From positions 1 through 64,000 of the forward strand of contig CANRFC010000010.1 in the NCBI GenBank assembly GCA_947629795.1: DNA of 64,000 nucleotides. Direction: 5' to 3'. The notes under the pieces are model-generated. The model made no database searches and was not told where the DNA came from. It worked only from the letters and a program-made list of their open reading frames with translations. Below are positions 2,725 to 25,436 of the stretch, in pieces; positions within the stretch are counted from its first letter, which is position 1, and each line of letters opens with the position of its first letter. The translations under genes were made by a program, and so were the position numbers. The stretch comes from an uncultured Oscillospiraceae bacterium (GTDB lineage: Bacteria > Bacillota > Clostridia > Oscillospirales > Oscillospiraceae).

Positions 2725-4332
2725 TTGTCCAAATATGAAAGCGAGATCGCCCGGCGGCGGACCTTTGCCATTATCTCCCACCCTGACGCCGGCAAGACCA
2801 CCCTCACCGAGAAGTTCCTGCTCTACGGCGGCGCCATCGCCCAGGCGGGGCAGGTGAAGGGCAAGAAGAACACCCGGGCCGCCACGTCGGACTGGATGGA
2901 GATCGAGAAGCAGAGGGGCATTTCGGTGACTTCCTCGGTGATGCAGTTCCAGTACGAGGGCTACTGCGTCAACATCCTGGATACTCCCGGACACCAGGAC
3001 TTCTCCGAGGACACCTACCGCACCCTCATGGCCGCCGACTCGGCCGTCATGGTCATCGACGCCGCCAAGGGCGTGGAGGCTCAGACCCGGAAGCTCTTCC
3101 ACGTATGCGCCCTCCGGGACATCCCCATCTTCACCTTCATCAACAAGCTGGACCGGGAGGCCCGGGACCCCTTTGAGCTGTGCGAGGAGCTGGAGCATGA
3201 GCTGGGCATCGAGACCTGCCCCATGAACTGGCCCATCGGCTGCGGCAAGGACTTTAAGGGCGTCTACGACCGGGAGAAGCATGAGATCATCCACTTCACT
3301 TCCAACGGCGGCGCCAAGGCCGCCACCGCCACCGAGGTGGCGCTGGACGACCCCGGCCTGGACGGCCTGCTGGGCACCGCCCTCCACGCCAAGCTCAGCG
3401 AGGACGTGGAGCTTTTGGACGGTGCCGCCGCCGAATTTGATCTGGAGAAGGTCCGCCACGGGAAGCTCTCCCCGGTGTTTTTCGGCTCCGCCCTCACCAA
3501 TTTCGGCGTGGAGCCCTTCCTGGAAGGCTTCCTGCGCATGACCACCCACCCCTTGCCCCGGACGGCGGGGGAGACCGTCATCGATTCCATGGACGACGAC
3601 TTTTCCGCCTTCGTCTTCAAGATCCAGGCCAACATGAATGCCCATCACCGGGACCGCATCGCCTTCATGCGGGTGGTCTCGGGCAAGTTCGAGGCGGACC
3701 GGGAGGTCTACCACGTCCAGGGCAAGAAGAAGCTCCGCCTCTCCCGGCCCCAGCAGCTTATGGCCGCCGAGCGGGAGATCATCGAGGAGGCCTACGCCGG
3801 GGACATCATCGGCGTGTTCGACCCCGGCATCTTCTCCATCGGGGATACCCTGTGCACCCCGGGGAAGAAGTTCAAGTTCGACCCCATTCCCACCTTCGCC
3901 CCCGAGCACTTCCGCCGGGTCCGGCCCATGGACACCATGAAGCGCAAGCAGTTCCTCAAGGGTGCCGAGCAGATCGCCCAGGAGGGCGCCATCCAGATGT
4001 TCAAGGCCCCCTACACCGGCATGGAGGAGATCATTGTGGGCGTGGTGGGCACCCTCCAGTTCGACGTGCTGGAGTACCGCCTGAAAAACGAGTACGGCGT
4101 GGACGTGTTCATGGAGGGCCTGCCCTACGAGTACCTGCGGTGGATCACCACCGCCGACGGGGAGCCCGCCAAGGAGGAGGACCTGATCCTGGGCACCGAC
4201 ACCAAGCTGGTGGAGGACTTCAAGGGCCGGCAGCTGCTCTTGTTCGGCTCTCAGTGGGCGGTGAACTGGACCGGGGAGCGCAATCCCCAGCTCACCTTCT
4301 CTGAATTCGGCCGCCCGGAGGAGGACGAGTGA
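2725..4332 (+). CDS. prfC: Peptide chain release factor 3
   Basis: This encodes 535 residues, the usual RF3 length. It is a translational GTPase with P-loop HPDAGKTT at 19-26, G3 DTPGH at 86-90 and G4 NKLD at 140-143, followed by EF-G-like domains. RF3 uses GTP to eject RF1/RF2 from the ribosome after peptide release. The likely start is TTG at 2725, preceded by GGAGGG seven to eight bases away; the next residues SKYESEIARRRTFAIISHPDAGK match RF3 N-termini. A small gene overlaps its stop codon. Confidence 0.97.
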   Translation: MSKYESEIARRRTFAIISHPDAGKTTLTEKFLLYGGAIAQAGQVKGKKNTRAATSDWMEIEKQRGISVTSSVMQFQYEGYCVNILDTPGHQDFSEDTYRTLMAADSAVMVIDAAKGVEAQTRKLFHVCALRDIPIFTFINKLDREARDPFELCEELEHELGIETCPMNWPIGCGKDFKGVYDREKHEIIHFTSNGGAKAATATEVALDDPGLDGLLGTALHAKLSEDVELLDGAAAEFDLEKVRHGKLSPVFFGSALTNFGVEPFLEGFLRMTTHPLPRTAGETVIDSMDDDFSAFVFKIQANMNAHHRDRIAFMRVVSGKFEADREVYHVQGKKKLRLSRPQQLMAAEREIIEEAYAGDIIGVFDPGIFSIGDTLCTPGKKFKFDPIPTFAPEHFRRVRPMDTMKRKQFLKGAEQIAQEGAIQMFKAPYTGMEEIIVGVVGTLQFDVLEYRLKNEYGVDVFMEGLPYEYLRWITTADGEPAKEEDLILGTDTKLVEDFKGRQLLLFGSQWAVNWTGERNPQLTFSEFGRPEEDE

Positions 4333-6116: not shown

Positions 6117-7025
6117 TTACTGCCCATCCAGCCACTGGCAGGCGGCGGTGGCGGCCACCGAGCCGTCGGCGGCGGCGGTGGTGAGCTGGCGCAGGCTCTT
6201 TGCCCGGCAGTCCCCGGCCACAAAGACGCCGGGGGTCCTGGTCCGGCAGTCCTCGCCGGCGATAAAGTAGCCGCTCTCGTCCAGCTCGGCCAGGGGGGCG
6301 AAGGGGGTGTTTTCCGGGGCCTGCCCCACCGCCACGAAGAGGCCGGGGACGGCCAGGCGCTCCGTCCCGCCGGTGGTCACGTCCCGCAGGACCAGGCCGG
6401 TGAGCTTGTCCTCCCCCTCCAGGGCCTGGATGGTGCGGGAGAGCTTCAGGACTATGTTTTCCCGCTCCCGGACCCGCCGGGCCAGGATCTCCGAGCCCCG
6501 GAACTCCTCCCGGCGGTGGATGAGATAGACCGTTTTGCAGATGCCGGAGAGGTAGAGGGCGGACTGGAGGGCGCTGTCCCCTCCGCCGGCCACCGCCGTC
6601 TCGCCCCCGGCGTAAAAGGCCCCGTCGCAGGTGGCGCAGTAGCTCACCCCCCGGCCCACAAGCTCCTCCTCCCGGGGAAGGCCCAGGTGGCGGTGCTTGG
6701 CCCCGGTGCACAGGATGAGGGCGCGGCCCTCAAAGCTCTTGCGGCCTGCGGTTAACATAAAACCACCCTCGATGGGCTCCGCCGCCTTCACCTGGCGGAA
6801 GGCGGTCTCCACCCCCAGGTCGGCGGCCTGCCGGGAAAGGGCCTCAGACCAGTCGGCGCCGCTGACGGCGGCCTGCCCCGGCCAGTTCTCCACCAGGGGG
6901 GAGGAGAGGATCTGTCCGCCCAGACCGGAACCCTCCACCACCAGGACGGACTTGCCCGCTCTGCGGGCGTAAATGGCGGCGGTGAGCCCCGCGGGGCCGC
7001 CCCCCACGATCAGGATATCATACAT
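6117..7025 (-). CDS. trxB: Thioredoxin reductase
   Basis: This encodes 302 residues, the low-molecular-weight TrxB size. The FAD-binding GGGPAG is at 8-13, the redox-active disulfide CATC is at 130-133, a second NAD(P)H-binding glycine motif (AGGGDSA) is near 147, and a C-terminal FAD motif GVFVAGD closes it. It reduces thioredoxin using NAD(P)H or, in some anaerobes, ferredoxin. The nucleotide-binding residues were not examined closely enough to decide which. GGGAGGAAAGG precedes the start. It is downstream of the repair gene at 7110-7877 in the same direction but separated by an 84-base gap containing one copy of the recurring 10-mer. Confidence 0.93.
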   Translation of the reverse strand: MYDILIVGGGPAGLTAAIYARRAGKSVLVVEGSGLGGQILSSPLVENWPGQAAVSGADWSEALSRQAADLGVETAFRQVKAAEPIEGGFMLTAGRKSFEGRALILCTGAKHRHLGLPREEELVGRGVSYCATCDGAFYAGGETAVAGGGDSALQSALYLSGICKTVYLIHRREEFRGSEILARRVRERENIVLKLSRTIQALEGEDKLTGLVLRDVTTGGTERLAVPGLFVAVGQAPENTPFAPLAELDESGYFIAGEDCRTRTPGVFVAGDCRAKSLRQLTTAAADGSVAATAACQWLDGQ

Positions 7026-13399: not shown

Positions 13400-14020
13400 A
13401 TGATGACCATTTCCTATGAGTACGAGGGAGCACTTTATGTAAACCTCACAAACCGGTGCGACTGCGCCTGCGTCTTCTGCCTGCGGCACAACGGCCACAA
13501 GGGCAGCATCTACGCCGACGACCTCTGGCTGGAGCACGAGCCCGACCGGGAGGAGATCTGGGCAGACTTCCAAAAGCGGGACCTGACCCGGTACCGGGAG
13601 CTGGTGTTCTGCGGCTTTGGGGAGCCCACCTTCCGCTGGGACGACGACGCCTGGCTCATCGACGAGCTCCGCAAGGTCTACGGGGACAAGCTGCCCCCGG
13701 TGCGCATCAACACCAACGGCCACGCCAACCGCATCCTGGGCCGGGACATCACCCCCGAGCTGGCCGGGCGGGTGGATACCATCTCCATCTCCCTCAACGG
13801 CGCCGACCGGGCCGAGTACACCGCCGTCACGCAGCCCTCCACCGGAGAGCAGGGCTGGGACGACATGCTGGACTTCACCCGCAAGGCGGCCAGGTACGTG
13901 CCCCAGGTGGTCATGACCATCGTGGACAAGGACAAGACCGAGGCCGATATCGCCGCCTGCCGCGCCCTGGCCGAGAGCCTGGGCGCTCACCTCCGGGTCC
14001 GGGCCTACATCCCCAACTGA
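13400..14020 (+). CDS. TatD-linked radical SAM protein (TIGR04038)
   Basis: This encodes 206 residues. The radical SAM CxxxCxxC is C20, C24 and C27 (NRCDCACVFC), followed by FCGFGEPTFR, the glycine-rich SAM-binding strand. The short barrel and the position next to tatD are the defining traits of TIGR04038, whose reaction is unknown. GGAGG within the tatD 3' end serves as ribosome site; the two adjacent ATGs at 13400 and 13403 are equivalent candidates. The pair suggests a coupled function in nucleic-acid or modified-residue processing. Confidence 0.9.
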   Translation: MMTISYEYEGALYVNLTNRCDCACVFCLRHNGHKGSIYADDLWLEHEPDREEIWADFQKRDLTRYRELVFCGFGEPTFRWDDDAWLIDELRKVYGDKLPPVRINTNGHANRILGRDITPELAGRVDTISISLNGADRAEYTAVTQPSTGEQGWDDMLDFTRKAARYVPQVVMTIVDKDKTEADIAACRALAESLGAHLRVRAYIPN

Positions 14021-15136: not shown

Positions 15137-16498
15137 ATGCAGACCTATCTGAAAAACGGCTACATTGTGACCATGGGCGCAGACGAGACCGTCTATGACG
15201 GCGGCGGCGTCCTGGTAGACGGGGAAAACATTGTGGCCGTAGGCAAGATCGACCCCGCCCAGGTCAGCCCCGACGCCGAGGTCATCGATCTGCAGGGCAA
15301 GTACGTCCTGCCCGGCTTCGTCAACACCCATGTCCACACCTCCCAGCAGATCTCCCGGGGGGTGGGCGACGACGTGGACTTCATCACCTGGCTCCACAAG
15401 CGGATGTGGCCTTACGAGAGCAACATGACCGAGGAGGACTCCTACGTCTCCACCCTGATGACCGCCCTGGAGCTGATCCGCTCCGGCGTCACCTCCTTTG
15501 CCGAGCCCGGCGGGCAGTTCGTCTCCGGCATGGCCCGGGCCACGGCGGAGTCCGGCCTGCGGGGCAAGCTGGCCAAGTCGGTGATGGACTGCGGCGAGGG
15601 CCTGCCTCCCATCTGGCAGCGCTCCATGGAGCAGGAACTGGAGCAGCAGGTGGAGGACCTGGAGAAGTACCACAACACCGCCGGCGGCCGGGTCCAGGTC
15701 TGGTTCGGCCTGCGTACCATCTTCAACAATACCGACGAGCTCATCGTCAAAACCAAGGAGCTGGCGGACAAGTACGGCGTGGGCGTCCACATGCATGTGG
15801 CCGAGGCCAAGGAGGAGAAGGAGTACACCTACCAGCGCTGGGGCGAGGGTACCGTCAAGCACCTGGAGGGCCTGGGCGTGCTGGATAAGAACCTCCTGGC
15901 CGTCCACACCGTCTGGCTCACCGACGAGGAGCTGGAGCTGTTCAAAAAGCGGGACGTAAAGGTCTCCCACAACCCGGCCTCCGCCATGCGGGTGCTGGGC
16001 TTTGCCCGCATCCCCAAGATGCTGAGCATGGGCATCAACGTCTCCATCGGTACCGACGGCGCCTCCTCCTCCAACCACATGGACATGGTGGACGAGATGT
16101 GGCTGACCAGCCTGATCCACAAGGGCTGGCGGCTGGACCCCACGGTGGTCCCCGCCCAGGACATCCTCCGCATGGCCACCCGGTGGGGTGCCCGCGCCCT
16201 GCTGGACGAGGACCTGTACGGCACCCTGGAGGTTGGCAAGAAGGCCGACCTCATCGTCATCGACCCCCACGGCCCCTCCATGATGCCGGTCAACGACAAG
16301 ATCGCCGCCCTGGTCACCGCCATGCACTCTTCCAACGTCCAGTCCACCATGTGCAACGGCAAGTGGCTCATGCGGGACCGGAAGATCCTCACCCTGGACG
16401 AGGAGGCCATCCTGAAGGAGGCCTGCGCCCGGGGCGCCGCCATCTATGACCGGGCGGGCATCGTCCTGCCCGACCGCTTCCCCGTGGTCAAGGTATGA
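15137..16498 (+). CDS. Amidohydrolase of the TrzA/AtzB/MtaD (aminohydrolase) type
   Basis: This encodes 453 residues. It is a metal-dependent deaminase or chlorohydrolase of the cytosine/SAH-deaminase-like group: HxH in VNTHVHTSQQ near 64-70, a third histidine in VHMHVAEAKEE, a fourth in AVHTVWL and the catalytic aspartate in GTDGASSSNHMD. These enzymes hydrolyse amino or halo groups on purine-, pyrimidine- or triazine-like rings. The operon context (adenine deaminase and purine permease downstream) points to an aminopurine or nucleoside-derived substrate. Guanine or SAH/MTA deamination are alternatives. GAGGAGG precedes the ATG. It overlaps the following transporter gene by four bases. Confidence 0.88.
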   Translation: MQTYLKNGYIVTMGADETVYDGGGVLVDGENIVAVGKIDPAQVSPDAEVIDLQGKYVLPGFVNTHVHTSQQISRGVGDDVDFITWLHKRMWPYESNMTEEDSYVSTLMTALELIRSGVTSFAEPGGQFVSGMARATAESGLRGKLAKSVMDCGEGLPPIWQRSMEQELEQQVEDLEKYHNTAGGRVQVWFGLRTIFNNTDELIVKTKELADKYGVGVHMHVAEAKEEKEYTYQRWGEGTVKHLEGLGVLDKNLLAVHTVWLTDEELELFKKRDVKVSHNPASAMRVLGFARIPKMLSMGINVSIGTDGASSSNHMDMVDEMWLTSLIHKGWRLDPTVVPAQDILRMATRWGARALLDEDLYGTLEVGKKADLIVIDPHGPSMMPVNDKIAALVTAMHSSNVQSTMCNGKWLMRDRKILTLDEEAILKEACARGAAIYDRAGIVLPDRFPVVKV

Positions 16499-17430
16499 CC
16501 GGCCCCTGGCCCAAGGCGCTTTTCCTGGGGGTCCTCTCCTCTCTGTTTTTCTCCTTCACGTACCTCATCAACAATTCCATGGCCCAGAGCGGCGGAGACT
16601 GGCTGTGGAGCACGTCCCTCCGGTTTTTGCTGATGCTCCCCGCTCTGGCGGTCCTCACCGCCCTCCGGGGCGGCTGGGAGCCCATCCTGGCCGAGGTGCG
16701 GAAAAGCCCCGGCAGGTGGCTGCTCTGGAGCACGGTGGGCTTCGGCGTCTTCTACGCCCCCCTGTCCTTCGCCTCCGCCTATGGCCCCAGCTGGATGGTG
16801 GCGGGGACCTTCCAGTTCACCATCCTGGCCGGAGCTCTGGAGACCCCCCTGTTCCGGGACGCCGACGGCCGGCGGCAGCGGATCCCCGCCCGCCTTTTCC
16901 CCGCCTTCCTGGTGATGATCGCCGGGGTGTTCCTCCTCCAGATGGAGCACATGGGGCAGGGCAGCGTGCAAAGCGCCCTCCGCTTCGCCCTCCCCGTCCT
17001 GCTCTCCGCCTTTGCCTACCCCCTGGGCAACCGCAAGACCATGGAGCTGTGCGGAGGAAGGCTCACCACCCTCCAGCGGGTGTTCGCCATGACCCTGTGC
17101 AGCCTGCCCCTCTGGCTGCTCCTGGCGGGAGCGGCCCTGGCCCGCGGGGGCCCGCCCCCGGCAAGTCAGACCCTTCAATGCCTCATTGTGGCCCTCTTCT
17201 CCGGTCTCATCGCCACCCTGATCTTTTTCCACGCCACCCAGTTGGTCCGCCATCAGCCCCAGCGGCTGGCCCTGGTGGAGTCCTGCCAGTGCGGAGAAGT
17301 CCTCTTCTCCCTGCTGGGAGGCATCCTGTTCCTTCGTGATCCCTGGCCGGGTCCCGCCGGTTGGCTGGGCCTGATCCTCATCGTAAGCGGCATGCTGGTC
17401 AACGCACGGCTCACCACAGCGCAAACCTGA
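16495..17430 (+). CDS. DMT-family exporter (EmrE-like, PF13536 type)
   Basis: This encodes 311 residues with about ten hydrophobic helices, the size of two-repeat DMT transporters. The N-terminus (ALFLGVLSSLFFSFTYLINNSM) and C-terminal helices (AGWLGLILIVSGMLV) match the putative multidrug resistance efflux family of Firmicutes. The start ATG overlaps the amidohydrolase stop (ATGA), implying translational coupling. In this operon it could export a toxic analogue or deamination product, which would fit ligand-responsive MerR control. The substrate is not determinable. Confidence 0.85.
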   Translation: MTGPWPKALFLGVLSSLFFSFTYLINNSMAQSGGDWLWSTSLRFLLMLPALAVLTALRGGWEPILAEVRKSPGRWLLWSTVGFGVFYAPLSFASAYGPSWMVAGTFQFTILAGALETPLFRDADGRRQRIPARLFPAFLVMIAGVFLLQMEHMGQGSVQSALRFALPVLLSAFAYPLGNRKTMELCGGRLTTLQRVFAMTLCSLPLWLLLAGAALARGGPPPASQTLQCLIVALFSGLIATLIFFHATQLVRHQPQRLALVESCQCGEVLFSLLGGILFLRDPWPGPAGWLGLILIVSGMLVNARLTTAQT

Positions 17431-17462
17431 CCCATCAAAAAAATCATTCTGGGAGGTACATC

Positions 17463-19229
17463 ATGAACAAAAAACTGCTGTCCGTCGCCAAGGGCCTTGC
17501 GCCCGCCGATCTGGTCATCAAAAACGGGAAGATCGTCAACGTGTACTCCGGCGAGATCTATGAAGGCGGCGTGGCCGTCTGCGGGGACACCATCGCCGCC
17601 GTGGGCGATGTGGACTACTGCGTGGGCGAGGGGACTAAGGTCATCGACGCCAACGGCAAGTACCTGACCCCCGGCTTCCTGGACGGCCACATCCATCCCG
17701 AGAGCTCCTCCCTGTCCATCCGTCCCTTTGCCGAGGCCGTGCTCTCCCACGGCACCACCGGCATCATGACCGACCTCCACGAGGTGGGCGTGGTCTCCGG
17801 CCTGGAGGGCATCGAGGCCATCCTGAAGGAGGCCGAGGCCACCGACCTGAAGATCTACTTCGTGGTCCCCTCCCACGTGCCCTTCTCTCCCAACCTGGAG
17901 ACCAGCGGCGGCCGCTTCAACCCCGAGATCATCCGCAAGGCCCTCCAGCGGCCCGACGCCGTGGGCCTGTCCGAGTGTGTGGGCCCCTACATCGTGGCGG
18001 AGTTCCCCGACCTGATGGAGGCCTTTGACGACACCAAGGCCATGCCCGGCAAGACCCTCCAGGGCCACCTGCCCGACATGTACGGCCACGACATGAGCGC
18101 CTGCGTGGCCGCCGGCGTCTACACCGACCACGAGTCCTTCTGCGAGAAGGACGTGTTCGAGCGCCTGCGCAACGGCTGCCACCTGATGATGCGGGAGGGC
18201 TCCGCCGCCCGCAACATGACCACCCTGCTCAAGACCGTCATGGACAACGATCTGGACACCTCCATGGTCAGCATCGTCACCGACGACCTGCACACCGTGG
18301 ACCTCCAGGAGATGGGCCACCTGGATGCCTCCCTGCGCACCGCCCTGGCCCAGGGCCTGGACTTCGTCAAGGCCATCCAGATGGTCACCGTCAACTGCGC
18401 CCGGGCCTTCCACCTGGACCAGGAGATCGGCGGTCTGGCCCCCGGCCGCCGGGCCGACATCAACATCACCACCGGCCCCGAGGACTTCAAGGTCCTCACC
18501 ACCTTCGCCGGCGGCCGCCAGATCACCGACAACGGCAAGCTCCTGGTCCACTATGAGCCCGCCGTCCATGACCCCTGCGTGCTGGGCACCATGCACCTGG
18601 TCAACCCCATCACCGCCGACAGCTTCAAGATCCATGCCCCCGCCGGAGCCAAGAAGGTGAAGGCCCTGGTGATGGACACCCTGCCCTACATCCCCTTCAC
18701 CAACCGCCGGGACGTGGAGCTCAGCGTGGTGGACGGCGTGGTCCGGTGCGATGTGGAACAGGACGTGCTCTACATCGCCCAGGTGGAGCGCCACGGCAAG
18801 AACGGCAACATCGGCAAGGGCTTCATGGGCGGCTTCCACATCCGGGGCGGCGCCATGGCCTCCTCCGTGGGCCACGACAACCACAATGTCATCGTCATGG
18901 GCGACAGCTTTGAGGACATGGCTCTGGCGGTGAACCGCTGCGTGGAGCTGGGCGGCGGCCAGGTCATCGTCCGGGACGGCAAGGTGGCCGCCGAGGTGGC
19001 CTACCCCGTCTGCGGCCTGCTCAGCGACCTGTCTCTGGACGAGCTGGCCGAGCAGAAGAAGGCGCTGAACAAGGTGGCCCATGAGATGGGCACCGAGATC
19101 GCCATCCCCTTCATGTTCCTGAGCTTCATCTGCCTGGCCGCCATCCCCGCCTACGCCATCACCGACTGCGGCTTCATCGACGTGCCCACCCAGAAGGTCA
19201 TCGACCCCATTCTGGAGGTCCTGGAGTAA
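17463..19229 (+). CDS. ade: Adenine deaminase
   Basis: This encodes 588 residues, full length for the Ade/AdeC family. LTPGFLDGHIHPESSSLS carries the HxH plus ESS signature, GHLPDMYGHDMSA the next ligands, and a C-terminal domain ends with VPTQKVIDPILEVLE. It converts adenine to hypoxanthine and ammonia, feeding purine salvage. The start is ATG at 17463 after TGGGAGG; in-frame extension further upstream overlaps the DMT gene and has no ribosome site. Coding lies between the DMT exporter and the NCS2 permease, all co-directional. Confidence 0.95.
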   Translation: MNKKLLSVAKGLAPADLVIKNGKIVNVYSGEIYEGGVAVCGDTIAAVGDVDYCVGEGTKVIDANGKYLTPGFLDGHIHPESSSLSIRPFAEAVLSHGTTGIMTDLHEVGVVSGLEGIEAILKEAEATDLKIYFVVPSHVPFSPNLETSGGRFNPEIIRKALQRPDAVGLSECVGPYIVAEFPDLMEAFDDTKAMPGKTLQGHLPDMYGHDMSACVAAGVYTDHESFCEKDVFERLRNGCHLMMREGSAARNMTTLLKTVMDNDLDTSMVSIVTDDLHTVDLQEMGHLDASLRTALAQGLDFVKAIQMVTVNCARAFHLDQEIGGLAPGRRADINITTGPEDFKVLTTFAGGRQITDNGKLLVHYEPAVHDPCVLGTMHLVNPITADSFKIHAPAGAKKVKALVMDTLPYIPFTNRRDVELSVVDGVVRCDVEQDVLYIAQVERHGKNGNIGKGFMGGFHIRGGAMASSVGHDNHNVIVMGDSFEDMALAVNRCVELGGGQVIVRDGKVAAEVAYPVCGLLSDLSLDELAEQKKALNKVAHEMGTEIAIPFMFLSFICLAAIPAYAITDCGFIDVPTQKVIDPILEVLE

Positions 19230-19267
19230 ATCATTCAAAAGGCAAACAGAGAGAGGAGAGACCCCCG

Positions 19268-20596
19268 ATGAAAAATGATTTCTTCCGCCTGGAGGAGCGG
19301 GGCAGCTCGGTCAAGCGCGAGGTCCTGGCCGGCGTCACCACCTTCATGACCATGGCCTACGTCCTGGCCGTCCAGCCCGCCGCCATCTGCGGATTTGGCC
19401 CCGACCCCTACATCACCGACATCAACGGCCTGGTCATCAGCAAGTCCGCCCTGCTGGTGATGTGCGCCCTCATCAGCGGCATCATCACCCTGTTCATGGG
19501 GCTCTACGCCAACCTGCCCCTGGCCCTGTCCACCGCCATGGGCAGCAACTTCATCCTGGGCGGTCTGGTGAACAGCGGCGCCTTCTCCTTCGGCTGGGCC
19601 ATGGCCCTCCTGCTGTGCTCCGGCACCCTGTTCATCCTGGTCACCGTCCTGGGTGTGCGGAAGATGGTGGTGGACCTGCTCCCCAAGAACCTGAAGATCG
19701 CCATCCCAACGGCGGTGGGCTTCTTCATCGCCTACCTGGGCTTCTCCAACACCGGCCTGGCCGTGTTTGAAGACGGCCTGGCCCTGGGCGACTTTACCCA
19801 GCCCTCGGTCCTGCTGGCCCTGATCACCATGATCATCATGGGCGCCCTCACCGCCTACAAGGTCCGGGGCGCCATCCTCATCGGCATCATCGCCGGCACG
19901 ATCATCAGCATCCCCATGGGGGTGTCCACCCTGCCCACCTCCCTGTTCTCCCTGCCCGATATGGGGGCCGTGAGTAACCTGGTGTTCAGCTACGACTTCA
20001 GGTCTCTCCTGGCCGACATCCCCGGCGCCCTGGTGTGGATCTTCATCCTGTTCACCAGCGACTTCTTCGCCACCTTCGGCGCCCTTATCGCCGTGGGGGC
20101 CCAGACCAACATGCTGGACGAGGAGGGCAACTTCCCCAACATCGAAAAGCCCTTCCTGGTGGACGCCGTGGGCACCGTGGTGGGTTCCGCCACCGGCTGC
20201 ACCACCATCTCCACCTTCATCGAGTCCACCATCGGCGTGGAGGCCGGCGGCCGCACTGGCCTGACCGCCATCGTCTGCGGCGTGCTGTTCCTGGTGTGTA
20301 TCTTCCTCTCCCCTCTGTTCCTGATGATCCCCACCGCCGTCACCGGCGTGGCCCTGATCTTCGTGGGCTTCTCCATGCTCTCCGGATTCACCAAGCTGGA
20401 CTTCTCCGACTTCAAGAGCTGCTTCGGCCCCTTCGTGATGATCATGTTCGGCACCTTCACCGGTGATATCGCCGCCGCCATCTGCCTGGGCGTCCTGTCT
20501 GACGTGCTGATGAAGGTCATCACCGGGGACGCCAAAAAGGTCCATCCCGTGCTCTACGTGCTGTGCATCCCCCTGGTGCTGTATTTCATCGTCTGA
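19268..20596 (+). CDS. NCS2/AzgA-family purine permease
   Basis: This encodes 442 residues and about 12-14 membrane helices. AzgA-type signatures are present: KREVLAGVTTFMTMAYVL near 18-35, ALSTAMGSNFILGG, and GTVVGSATGCTTISTFIESTIGVEAGGRTGL. AzgA-type proteins are proton symporters for adenine, hypoxanthine or guanine. It follows ade by 38 bases with GAGAGGAG before the ATG. Together with the two deaminases it forms an import-and-deaminate module. Three stacked terminators end the operon. Confidence 0.92.
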   Translation: MKNDFFRLEERGSSVKREVLAGVTTFMTMAYVLAVQPAAICGFGPDPYITDINGLVISKSALLVMCALISGIITLFMGLYANLPLALSTAMGSNFILGGLVNSGAFSFGWAMALLLCSGTLFILVTVLGVRKMVVDLLPKNLKIAIPTAVGFFIAYLGFSNTGLAVFEDGLALGDFTQPSVLLALITMIIMGALTAYKVRGAILIGIIAGTIISIPMGVSTLPTSLFSLPDMGAVSNLVFSYDFRSLLADIPGALVWIFILFTSDFFATFGALIAVGAQTNMLDEEGNFPNIEKPFLVDAVGTVVGSATGCTTISTFIESTIGVEAGGRTGLTAIVCGVLFLVCIFLSPLFLMIPTAVTGVALIFVGFSMLSGFTKLDFSDFKSCFGPFVMIMFGTFTGDIAAAICLGVLSDVLMKVITGDAKKVHPVLYVLCIPLVLYFIV

Positions 20597-20826: not shown

Positions 20827-22083
20827 TTACCTCTCGATATCTACCAGTTTTGTATAGCGGGCGAGGGGGTACTCGCCGTCGTGGGCCTCGCCGGGGAAAG
20901 CGGCGGACATGTGGCCGGGGCGGGTGATGCGGGTGACGCCGGCGCGGGCGAGCAGATCGGTCAAAAGCGCTCTATCCCTTGGGGGACAAAGGAGAGCGGC
21001 GGTCTGCAGGTACTCCTTCCGGGCCCTCAGAACCGGCAAAAGCTGCTCCCGGGGCAGGCATTTGACGAAGACGTTGCCCTCCATGGGGGAGAGCTCCAAT
21101 TGGGGGTCCTCGCAGGCGATGAGGGAACAGCCGTGATCCCGGAAGAGCTTCTCTCCCAAGGCTTTGCCGGTGACCACCCGCTCCAGGAGGGCGGTGTGTC
21201 CGTACAGGGAGGACAGGGCCCGGGTGCTCTCGAACCGCCGCGCCATCCCCCCCAAAATGGGCGCGAACCCCTCACAAAAAGTCTCCATGAAGGCGCGGTC
21301 GGCGGTGTCTAAGTAAATGATCTGGCAGGAGGAGCACAGTCTTCCCCCGGTGGACAGGATGTGCTCGGCCAGGGCGGCCAGGTCCTCCTCCGGGAAGTCC
21401 TCCCCGGAGAGGTAGGCGAAGCTCAGCCGGTGTCCCCACTCCATGAGCTTGCAGTTGGGGCCGGCCAGCTGCCGGGCGGCCAGGATGGCGGCGTCGGAGC
21501 CCCAGGTCACCACCCCGTCGGCCAGGCCGGCCAGGGTTTGGAGCTCCTGGGTGTGGGAGGAGGGGAGGTCGAAGGCGTAGAGGAAGTCGGCCAGGGCGGG
21601 CTGGGTCTGGCAGAGCAGGGACAGGGCGGCCAGGGAGAGCCCCTTGTCCCCGTGGGGGAGCTTCAGCAGGTTGATGTTGCCGGTGAGGAGCCCCTCCAGG
21701 GCGGAGTAGACCGGCAGGCCGGGCTGGTTGCCGGCGGCGATGTGGAGCAGGACCCCCAGGGGAAGGCGGTGGGTGACGGTTTCCGCCTGCTCCTTGGGGG
21801 CGAAGGGGTCCTCCCCCAGCTCCGCCCGGAGCTTTTCTTCCCAGAATTCCCGGCTGAGCAGGGGCAGCAGCTCCCCGGCTGTCACGCCGGGGGGCAGATA
21901 CCGGGAGAGCAGGTCGTCGAACTCCCCGGCGCGGACCCGGTCCCCCAGGGCGGCCAGGGCGTCCACGACCAGGTCGGGTGACAGGCGCTTTTGGGCCAGG
22001 GTGGCGTCGATCTCCTCCCGGAGCCGGGAGAGGACCTGGGGGCGGGCAGAGTCGGGCAGGAGCTTTCCGTGGGCCAGGAGCAT
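20827..22083 (-). CDS. LuxC-type acyl-CoA/acyl-protein reductase
   Basis: This encodes 418 residues. The sequence matches the LuxC family of NADPH-dependent long-chain acyl reductases: LGVLLHIAAGNQPGLPVYSALEGLLTGN, and a probable acyl-accepting cysteine C250 in GGRLCSSCQII. LuxC takes an acyl group from LuxE and reduces it to a fatty aldehyde. A LuxE-like gene lies two genes upstream in the same direction with a cardiolipin synthase between. No luciferase genes are present, so the aldehyde must serve another purpose. The ATG has AAAGGAGG upstream with normal spacing. Confidence 0.88.
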   Translation of the reverse strand: MLLAHGKLLPDSARPQVLSRLREEIDATLAQKRLSPDLVVDALAALGDRVRAGEFDDLLSRYLPPGVTAGELLPLLSREFWEEKLRAELGEDPFAPKEQAETVTHRLPLGVLLHIAAGNQPGLPVYSALEGLLTGNINLLKLPHGDKGLSLAALSLLCQTQPALADFLYAFDLPSSHTQELQTLAGLADGVVTWGSDAAILAARQLAGPNCKLMEWGHRLSFAYLSGEDFPEEDLAALAEHILSTGGRLCSSCQIIYLDTADRAFMETFCEGFAPILGGMARRFESTRALSSLYGHTALLERVVTGKALGEKLFRDHGCSLIACEDPQLELSPMEGNVFVKCLPREQLLPVLRARKEYLQTAALLCPPRDRALLTDLLARAGVTRITRPGHMSAAFPGEAHDGEYPLARYTKLVDIER

Positions 22084-22119
22084 GGGGGGACCTCCTTTCC
22101 GTGGGTCAGGGGCGGCCGT

Positions 22120-23661
22120 TTACAGCAAAGGGGCGAAGAGCCGCAGCAGGCACTGCAGGATGGTGGGGGGCTTGCTGCGGCCTGCGCGGCGCTCCTCGGT
22201 GACCTCCCGGGAGGCGGCAAAGAGGGAGAGAAAATCCTTTTCCACCTCTTTTACCGCCCGGAAGCCGGTGAAGAGACAGCCGTTTTCAAAGTGGTGGTAG
22301 AGACTGCGAAAGTCGAAATTGATAGTGCCCACGGTGGCGGTCTTGCCGTCGCAGAGGACCTGCTTCTGGTGGAGGAAGCCGGGGGTGTACTCATACACCC
22401 GGACCCCGGCGGCGGCCAGGGGGACGCAGTAGGCCCGGGAGAACTGGTAGATGAGCTTTTTGTCCGGGATGCCGGGAATGACCAGGCGCACGTCCACCCC
22501 CCGGCGGGCGCACAGGCACAGGGCCCGGGTCATCTCGTCGCTGAGGATGAGATAGGGGGTGGCGATATAGAGGCTCTCCCGGGCCGAGGCGATGAGGTTG
22601 AGGTACACGTCCTCCCCCAGGGGGATGTTGTCCAGGGGACTGTCGGCGTAGAGCTGGAGGAAGCCGGTCTCTTGGGGCCGGTAGGGCTCCCGGCAGAAGT
22701 AGGGGTCGTAGTCGGCGTCGGTCTCTCCCATGGCGTTCCACATCTCCAGGAACATGCCGGTGAGGGCCTCCACCCCCTCTCCCCGGAGCATGATCCCGGT
22801 GTCCTTCCAGTGGCCGTAGGGGTGGGTGAGGTTGAAGTACTCGTCGGCCAGGTTGTAGCCCCCGGTGAAGCCCACCTTCCCGTCGATGACGGTGATCTTC
22901 CGGTGGTCCCGGTTGTTCATGAAGAAGTTGAGGGCGGGCACCACCGGGTTGAACATCCGGCACTGGACCCCGATGGAGCCCATCCGCTTGATGAAGCCGG
23001 GGTCGATAAAGCCGATGCTGCCCACGTCGTCGTAGAGCACCCGGACCTCCACCCCGTGGGCCGCCCGGTCGGCCAGGACGGCCTTGAGCCGGGCGAAGGC
23101 GGCACCCTCTTCAATGGCGTGATACTCCATGAAGATGAACTTCTCCGCCCTGGCCAGCTCGGCGAGCTGGGCCTCGAAGCCCTGGGCGGCGTCGGGGAAG
23201 AAGGCCAGGTCGGTGTTGTGATAGACCGGATAGCCGCTCTGGGCGCGGATGTACCGGCACTGGTTGGCCACAGCGCGGTCGAAGTCCTCCAGCTCCTCTG
23301 CCGCCGCCGGGTCTTGGGCGATCTCGGCGAGGAGCTTGGGGTCGATCTTCTCAAAGCGGCGGCGCATGCGCTTGGTCACATCCTTGTGCCCGAAGAGGCA
23401 GAAGAGGAACATGCCCAGCACCGGAGAGGCCAGGATGAGGATGATCCAGGGCATCTTGAAGGCGGCGTTCTCCTGCCCGCCGTAGATCTTCAGAGCCACC
23501 ACCAGGGCCAGAACCGCGGTGAGGGCGCTGATGACCGCAGACCACTCGTTGAGCCGGGCGGCCAGAATGTAGAGCCAGACCAGCTGGATGAGGATGCACA
23601 CGGCGGCGAAAAGGGCCCGGCCGATGCTGTTTTTGACGTTGGTCTTTTCCTCGGTGCGCAT
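22120..23661 (-). CDS. cls: Cardiolipin synthase
   Basis: This encodes 513 residues. Two N-terminal membrane helices (about 16-36 and 41-60) plus a third hydrophobic stretch near 70-90 precede two phospholipase D domains with complete HKD motifs, H253-x-K255-x4-D260 and H431-x-K433-x4-D438. It condenses two phosphatidylglycerols into cardiolipin at the membrane. Placement between LuxE- and LuxC-like genes is unusual. It could synthesise or remodel an alternative phospholipid using products of the reductase. Gene spacing is 36-45 bases on both sides. Confidence 0.93.
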   Translation of the reverse strand: MRTEEKTNVKNSIGRALFAAVCILIQLVWLYILAARLNEWSAVISALTAVLALVVALKIYGGQENAAFKMPWIILILASPVLGMFLFCLFGHKDVTKRMRRRFEKIDPKLLAEIAQDPAAAEELEDFDRAVANQCRYIRAQSGYPVYHNTDLAFFPDAAQGFEAQLAELARAEKFIFMEYHAIEEGAAFARLKAVLADRAAHGVEVRVLYDDVGSIGFIDPGFIKRMGSIGVQCRMFNPVVPALNFFMNNRDHRKITVIDGKVGFTGGYNLADEYFNLTHPYGHWKDTGIMLRGEGVEALTGMFLEMWNAMGETDADYDPYFCREPYRPQETGFLQLYADSPLDNIPLGEDVYLNLIASARESLYIATPYLILSDEMTRALCLCARRGVDVRLVIPGIPDKKLIYQFSRAYCVPLAAAGVRVYEYTPGFLHQKQVLCDGKTATVGTINFDFRSLYHHFENGCLFTGFRAVKEVEKDFLSLFAASREVTEERRAGRSKPPTILQCLLRLFAPLL

Positions 23662-23706
23662 GGAGAGACTTCCTTTCTCTGATGGGGGCGGACAAAAGGC
23701 GGGAGG

Positions 23707-24831
23707 TCAGAAGGCCTCCCCCTGGCCCAGGAGCTCAGAGGCCCCGGCGGCGCAGGTGGTGATGCCGGCGGCCCCCACCCGGCCCAGGATGTGGAGGACG
23801 GGGCTTTTCCGCCCGCAGGAGCACTCCTCCCCCGGGGAGAGCCAGCCCAGATCGTCGGTCATCACGCTGAGGGTGGGGGTGGCGGTCATCAGGGGGGAGA
23901 TGAGGTCAATGAGCCCCACCTGGCCCATGGGCAGGGGCTCCAGGGTGGCCGGGTCCCGGATGAGGATGCGGCCGTAGATGGGGACGTGGAATTGGTGACG
24001 CTCACAGGCGTTGTAGAAGATGGGGTGCTCCACCGCCCCGAAGAGCTCGTTGACGTGGTCGGGGGGGATGCCCAGGACCTTCCGGGCCAGGGCGTAGAGG
24101 ACATTCTTGTCCACCTCGGCGTCGGCGTGCTGCTTCCAGCCCCCGGCCAGGATGATCCGGGAGCGGGGGCGGAGCTGTACCTGCAGGCCCAGCTCCTCCA
24201 TGCGTTTGAGGCCGAACCAGAGGTAGGAGGGAAAGCCCACGATGCGGGTGGGGAAGGGGGAGCGGGCACATTGTTCCAGAGCCTTGGCCACCCCGTCCAG
24301 GTCGGGGACGTAGGCGCCGTTTTCCCGGCGCAGGGCGTAAAAGCGCCGCAGGGGCGGGGAGAAGAAGGTCAGGCCGAACATGGTGCGGGTGACTCCGGTG
24401 TGGTTGTCCCTGTCCGGCTTGTACCCCAGCACCACGCAGTTGGAGGGCACCGGGGAGACCAGGTGGTGGGCAAAGCCCAGGCGGAGGACCATGGGGACCT
24501 CGGCCAGGATGCAGCCCCAGTCAAAGCCGATGCGGCTGAAGCTGCCGCTGGTGCCCGAGGAGGTGACCTTCATGGCCATGCGCCACTCCGGCATGGAGAA
24601 GAGGGCATGGCGCTTGAAAAAGAGAGTGGGCAGGACGGGGATCCTGGCCAGGTCGTCCATGGTCTTCAGGTCCTCCGGGCGGAAGGAGAAGTGGTCGCAG
24701 ATGGCGGCGTAGTCGGGACAGTGGGCTATGTGGTAGGCGGCGTTGTCCCGGCAGGCGCGGAGGAAGGCGGCGTCAGACCGGGGCAGGTCATAGGGCCTGC
24801 CCATCCAGAAAAGCCGCTGGCGGGAGAGCAT
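23707..24831 (-). CDS. LuxE/PaaK-like acyl-activating protein
   Basis: This encodes 374 residues. It belongs to the ANL-related LuxE acyl-protein synthetase family. The P-loop-like TSSGTSGSFSRIGFD near 90-105 binds ATP, and RSRIILAGGWKQHADAEV near 225-245 is a family landmark. A late cysteine pair (CSCGRKSP) resembles PaaK proteins. LuxE activates a fatty acid with ATP and hands the acyl group to LuxC for reduction. GAGGAGG precedes the ATG. It appears to be the second gene of a four-gene leftward unit beginning with a secreted protein. Confidence 0.85.
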   Translation of the reverse strand: MLSRQRLFWMGRPYDLPRSDAAFLRACRDNAAYHIAHCPDYAAICDHFSFRPEDLKTMDDLARIPVLPTLFFKRHALFSMPEWRMAMKVTSSGTSGSFSRIGFDWGCILAEVPMVLRLGFAHHLVSPVPSNCVVLGYKPDRDNHTGVTRTMFGLTFFSPPLRRFYALRRENGAYVPDLDGVAKALEQCARSPFPTRIVGFPSYLWFGLKRMEELGLQVQLRPRSRIILAGGWKQHADAEVDKNVLYALARKVLGIPPDHVNELFGAVEHPIFYNACERHQFHVPIYGRILIRDPATLEPLPMGQVGLIDLISPLMTATPTLSVMTDDLGWLSPGEECSCGRKSPVLHILGRVGAAGITTCAAGASELLGQGEAF

Positions 24832-24857
24832 GGAAGGACCTCCTCTCTGGGGAAGCG

Positions 24858-25436
24858 TCAGTACTGGTAGGGCTTGTTGGTCTCGATATACACGCCACGC
24901 TCCCCGGACCAGCCCACGTTGAAGCCCAGGGCCTGGCCCAGGTCACGGAGCTTGTAGTAGGTGTGCCAGCCCCCCTGGCTGTCGGTGAGGACGAAGGAGC
25001 TCAGAGCCATCTGGACGCTGCCCACGTAGGTGGCGGTGCCCCAGCGGTAGCTCTGGTTCCCGGTGAAGGGGGAGGCCGAGAGCTCGGTGCCGTTGGGGAC
25101 GTAGGTCTGGCCGGGGCGGAGGGTCACAAGGCCGTCCCACTCCACGGCGAACTCGGCCCGGGTGCCCGTCAGGCGGACGGCCAGGTCCCGGAGCTTCACG
25201 TAGTTGGTGGGGTTGCCCTGCTCGTCCATCAGGGCGTACATCTGGAACTCCACTTTGCGGCCGTCCAGGTCCACCGTCTGGGTGGAGACGTAGGCGATGT
25301 CGGGGTCGTAGACCACCAGGGCGGCGGGCTCTGAGGCCTCCGGAGCGCCCTCCGGGACCTGGGGGGCCTCTTCGGCCAGGGCCGGGGTCAGGAGCAGGGC
25401 GGCGGAGAGGAGCAGGGCGGGAAATCGGGTGTGCAT
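24858..25436 (-). CDS. Secreted protein with copper-amine-oxidase-N/stalk-like repeats
   Basis: This encodes 192 residues. A signal peptide (MHTRFPALLLSAALLLTPALA) with a cleavage site near residue 21 precedes two similar modules with the YVKLRDLA and YYKLRDLGQALGFNVGW motifs. Such motifs occur in the copper amine oxidase N-terminal-like domain common in secreted clostridial proteins, usually next to SLH or other wall domains. The function is unknown. It lies 26 bases upstream of the LuxE-like gene and is probably co-transcribed with it. Confidence 0.75.
   Translation of the reverse strand: MHTRFPALLLSAALLLTPALAEEAPQVPEGAPEASEPAALVVYDPDIAYVSTQTVDLDGRKVEFQMYALMDEQGNPTNYVKLRDLAVRLTGTRAEFAVEWDGLVTLRPGQTYVPNGTELSASPFTGNQSYRWGTATYVGSVQMALSSFVLTDSQGGWHTYYKLRDLGQALGFNVGWSGERGVYIETNKPYQY

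Follow-up and report, generated by a model that had tools for sequence, protein, structure and literature searches.

We propose that two genes in a 64,000-nucleotide stretch of DNA from an uncultured Oscillospiraceae bacterium (the window) encode a luciferase-free carboxylic acid reductase, made up of a LuxE-like acyl-adenylating enzyme and a LuxC-like acyl reductase. The two genes are separated by a gene for a PLD-type cardiolipin synthase (Cls), and this insertion was unique in our sample. The explanation that we favor, with a probability of about 0.62, is that LuxE and LuxC form such a reductase, that the pair was relocated, that its operon was rebuilt, and that Cls is an accidental insertion.

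A four-gene run without luciferase

The locus is a run of four genes on the minus strand. In order of transcription, they encode a putative secreted protein of 192 amino acids with a signal-like N-terminus (25436-24858); the LuxE-like protein, with 374 amino acids (24831-23707; PF04443 LuxE, 5.6e-33); the PLD-type Cls, with 513 amino acids (23661-22120); and the LuxC-like protein, with 418 amino acids (22083-20827; PF05893 LuxC, 8.5e-48). Both Pfam matches exceed the cut-off. From the first gene to the last, the intergenic gaps measure 26, 45, and 36 bases. A purine-rich stretch that resembles a ribosome site precedes each of LuxE, Cls, and LuxC. These coordinates and domain matches confirm the gene set of the original prediction, which was made from the sequence alone, along with its common direction, short gaps, and preceding secreted protein.

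Upstream of the run is a promoter-like site (TTGCCA-17-TAAACT, 25495-25467, minus strand) that matches the consensus at 9 of 12 positions; 0.3 such sites are expected from shuffled sequence. The site alone is no evidence of function. An intrinsic terminator-like hairpin, with a 16-bp stem and a T tail, lies 3' of LuxC (20820-20785, minus strand). Given a promoter-like site before the first gene and a terminator after the last, it is plausible that all four genes would be transcribed together.

The 192-residue protein weakly resembles the copper amine oxidase N-terminal-like "stalk" repeat (PF07833, E = 0.024, below the cut-off). We considered it as a partner and rejected it, as no homolog was found near the relatives of LuxE or Cls that we tested. 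Elsewhere in the window (15137-20596), genes for an amidohydrolase, a transporter-like protein, an adenine deaminase, and a xanthine/uracil permease stand in a row and are likely to be involved in purine use.

The genome is a draft of 2.86 Mb in 83 contigs and is 98.6% complete. The luciferase family (PF00296) has no match anywhere in it, while the same search finds matches in 10 of 14 control genomes. Thus the LuxA and LuxB that a bacterial luminescence (lux) operon requires are lacking across this genome, and the prediction that the locus is without luciferase holds genome-wide.

Probable chemistry and substrate of the LuxE-LuxC pair

In LuxE, we identified an SSGTSG loop (residues 91-96) and a cysteine, C360, whose counterpart in a profile alignment is the acyl-transfer cysteine close to the C-terminus of Photobacterium LuxE. 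Similarly, C250 of LuxC aligns with the cysteine of YDQQACFSTQ in Photobacterium LuxC. The acyl sites of the Photobacterium proteins are Cys364 of LuxE and Cys286 of LuxC (PMC8301110). Both C360 and C250 are invariant in 18-sequence alignments of relatives. LuxE also contains a CX2HX2H motif (276-282) and a CxCG motif (337-340), which together are a possible metal site; the aligned region of Photobacterium LuxE shows neither motif.

The top sequence matches in PDB for LuxE and LuxC are the two chains of the LuxC-LuxE complex from Photobacterium phosphoreum (7xc6). The predicted structure of LuxC (pLDDT 91) has a fold like that of aldehyde dehydrogenases: its first match is 7xc6_A (E = 1.9e-18), and aldehyde dehydrogenases follow. 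The model of LuxE, which has a pLDDT of 84 that is low in the C-terminal tail, resembles PaaK-type adenylating enzymes and ligases (2y27 and others). Compared to those structures, LuxE is shorter and ends near the conserved cysteine, and in its branch it is always paired with LuxC. The pair therefore shares with the luminous reductase two Pfam families, both acyl cysteines, the top sequence matches, and, for LuxC, the top fold match. It differs in its lack of a luciferase, the remoteness of the similarity, the two extra motifs in LuxE, and the Cls gene between its two genes. It would work like the luminous fatty acid reductase, yet we do not file it as a member of that group, because it scores far below the cut-offs of the NCBIfam luminescence equivalogs (73 of 550 bits for LuxE and 40 of 750 bits for LuxC; NF052244 and NF052251).

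Because the catalytic cysteines are intact, the pair is likely to carry out acid-to-aldehyde chemistry, and the first prediction of a LuxE-like activator with a LuxC-like reductase stands. From the sequences and structural models, we infer the following scheme. With ATP, LuxE would activate a free acid (probably a fatty acid) as its adenylate and then bind the acyl group at Cys360, near its C-terminus. After transfer of this group to Cys250 of LuxC, LuxC would use NAD(P)H to reduce the resulting thioester, which would yield the aldehyde. Since there is no luciferase, the aldehyde would go elsewhere; for instance, a housekeeping dehydrogenase might convert it to the alcohol.

The remote similarity to the luminous enzymes makes a different acid possible, including an aromatic one, given that the closest solved folds of LuxE are of the PaaK type (phenylacetate-CoA ligase-like). 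The pair could act on an aromatic, branched, or amino-acid-derived acid and serve a small-molecule or glycan pathway. Genomic contexts lend this idea some support. In Clostridia, a divergent branch of LuxE-LuxC adjoins carrier proteins and acyl ligases and, in one locus, the halves of a transketolase. Two of these pairs sit beside a carrier protein (L050:7700-13163 and L142:5017-10751), and the acyl ligase and the transketolase halves are in L142. In another genome (L176:33-10351), LuxC and LuxE lie apart in a cluster with an AMP ligase, a carrier protein, and KAS-like, radical SAM, and aconitase-like genes. Also, LuxE, LuxC, and ACP occur together in islands for flagellin glycosylation in Enterobacteriaceae (PMC4875605). 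These islands and the divergent branch make the luciferase-free use of LuxE and LuxC a known theme, which does not by itself give the substrate in the window.

However, it is in the divergent branch that these biosynthetic contexts are found. The flagellin glycosylation sets are accompanied by carrier proteins, ligases, and FabG, none of which is found with the pair in the window. In the window's own branch, the pair stands alone among unrelated housekeeping genes that, from reading their sequences, are ZapA-, dUTPase-, Maf-, and MreC-like. We rejected the neighbors of the standalone pair as a clue to the substrate, as only unrelated housekeeping genes are found there in the Pseudoflavonifractor-like group. 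Overall, we consider a non-fatty substrate to be rather unlikely, and we favor a fatty acid.

Gene order in relatives and the position of Cls

LuxE and LuxC form a conserved unit in Clostridia. Outside the window, we measured 57 distinct pairs base by base, and the two genes are adjacent in all of them. In 50 of these pairs, the stop codon of one gene and the start codon of the other overlap by four bases (ATGA in 22, TTGA in 20, and GTGA in 8); the other seven overlap by up to 11 bases or are up to 223 bases apart. A scan of genome contigs found LuxC directly after LuxE in all 30 loci. Both genes are present in 14 of the 16 genomes of the genus, and they adjoin in all 13 besides that of the window. 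Across 200 genomes of the family, all 15 LuxE matches of comparable strength outside the window have LuxC beside them. In a sample of the class, LuxC adjoins LuxE in 20 of the 20 loci that we examined, including two in which both are in one reading frame. A simple hairpin rule identifies terminators after LuxC in about a quarter of the loci from relatives, which is uninformative.

Fused LuxE-LuxC frames of about 780-790 amino acids were found in L136 (7905-10247) and L140 (8229-10598), and G346 (contig C1, 9417-11300) has another such frame, of about 790 amino acids. We predict that these fusions are natural single-chain acid reductases. In L148 (8353-16261), LuxE is followed by a LuxC that is fused to a second AMP-binding domain and then by MATE-like, GNAT-like, and PaaK-like genes, all in one run.

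In a sample of the phylum, one strong LuxE (from G853) lacks an adjoining LuxC, although a LuxC is encoded some 5 kb from it within one biosynthetic-looking cluster. The window is therefore a rare case of separated genes, but not the only one.

The original prediction described LuxE, Cls, and LuxC as a cassette and suggested checking whether the three genes co-occur across Clostridia. The LuxE-LuxC part of the cassette recurs throughout, as described above. In contrast, no Cls lies inside any other LuxE-LuxC pair, either among the 57 distinct pairs or in the 20 class-level loci. The closest relatives of Cls in the genus (68% identity in G208, 54% in G205, and 53% in G212) are all encoded away from LuxE. 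Based on the gene order in related genomes, we rejected Cls as a conserved partner of the pair. Cls itself is an ordinary member of its family, with 305.8 bits to TIGR04265 (cut-off 290). As predicted, both of its HKD motifs are intact (HRKITVID and HQKQVLCD, with HxKxxxxD at residues 253 and 431). It differs from other PLD-type Cls only in its position between LuxE and LuxC.

The surroundings of the locus point to a relocation. In several members of the genus, the pair adjoins the gene for RF3 and/or a flavin oxidoreductase gene, or else a radical SAM gene. The window contains the orthologs of these neighbors (RF3 at 2725-4332, the flavin oxidoreductase at 6117-7025, and the radical SAM gene at 13400-14020). 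A MerR-RDD gene, with no lux genes, is found between RF3 and the flavin oxidoreductase; the lux genes are at 20.8-24.8 kb. LuxE in the window keeps its C-terminus but ends in TTC-TGA, and no ATG, GTG, or TTG start overlaps its stop codon.

The two proteins also differ in their branch lengths: 0.67 for LuxC versus 0.33 for its sister, and 0.23 for LuxE versus 0.22. Relative-rate comparisons of LuxC to its sister show an excess with three outgroups (p of about 0.003-0.013) that is absent with the fourth and most distant (p = 0.37). LuxE shows no excess against the same sister; an excess for LuxE appears in one of seven comparisons. The placement of the window's LuxC in the tree is unsupported.

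The simplest account is that the window holds a rearranged operon. In this lineage alone, the pair would have left its usual site and lost the overlapping stop and start codons. The operon would then have been rebuilt behind the gene for the secreted protein, with the PLD-type Cls between LuxE and LuxC. Cls would carry out its own reaction, in which two phosphatidylglycerols are converted to cardiolipin and glycerol, and it would at most be co-expressed with the pair.

Lipid pathways and the role of the pair

If Cls is not an accidental insertion, then the three enzymes might form a lipid pathway, in which Cls attaches the aldehyde made by LuxE-LuxC to a phospholipid or cardiolipin precursor, or takes part in doing so, to give for example an acetal or ether cardiolipin. 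The common direction, the short gaps, the promoter-like site before the run, and the terminator after it are as expected for such a pathway, and this Cls is the only PLD-type Cls that we detected in the genome. Glycerol acetals of plasmalogens are known from clostridia, and the synthesis of plasmalogens in bacteria is reported to use long-chain aldehydes, not alcohols (PMC9702350). Nevertheless, the lack of Cls in every other pair, the location of its close relatives in three members of the genus, and its ordinary membership in TIGR04265 make this pathway very unlikely.

There may also be a known route to plasmalogens in this genome, which would weigh against the three-enzyme pathway as well. 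Bacterial plasmalogens are made from diacyl lipids by PlsA/PlsR (PMC9702350). On contig C27 (L152:1261-5564), a 984-residue protein with two activase domains and DUF2229 is encoded beside a 447-residue open reading frame that matches no family. NCBIfam does not give either protein a plasmalogen name, but the architecture suggests a PlsA/PlsR-like pair. If so, LuxE-LuxC would be unneeded for plasmalogen synthesis, and we tentatively set aside the supply of plasmalogens as its role; other lipid roles would still be possible. The earlier suggestion that the aldehyde or alcohol feeds an ether or aldehyde-derived lipid gains no positive support from these results, and we found nothing in favor of the accompanying idea that the system repairs acyl groups.

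A narrower version is that the three enzymes cooperate in the window's lineage only, with an acid-derived aldehyde leading to a cardiolipin-type or acetal phospholipid, in a set that arose recently by rearrangement of the operon. The faster evolution of LuxC would then reflect a change of role. We give this version slightly less credence still. Least likely of all is an assembly artefact: the draft consists of 83 contigs, and the LuxE-Cls-LuxC order was not seen in a second genome of this species, but both joins lie precisely between genes, every gene retains a ribosome-site-like stretch, the start codon no longer overlaps, and the genes resemble each other in GC and GC3.

We return to our favored reading of LuxE-LuxC as a probable two-gene acid reductase with Cls as an accidental insertion. 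The insertion illustrates how a pathway may be suggested by gene order in one genome and yet find no support when genomes are compared. We found no paper in the open-licence literature on the function of LuxE-LuxC in Clostridia, nor any published characterization of the luciferase-free pair. With its genes overlapping in many gut Clostridia and fused in some, this pair is a putative acid-to-aldehyde machine of anaerobes. In the gut, it could be a source of aldehydes or alcohols; alternatively, it could serve as a compact carboxylic acid reductase.
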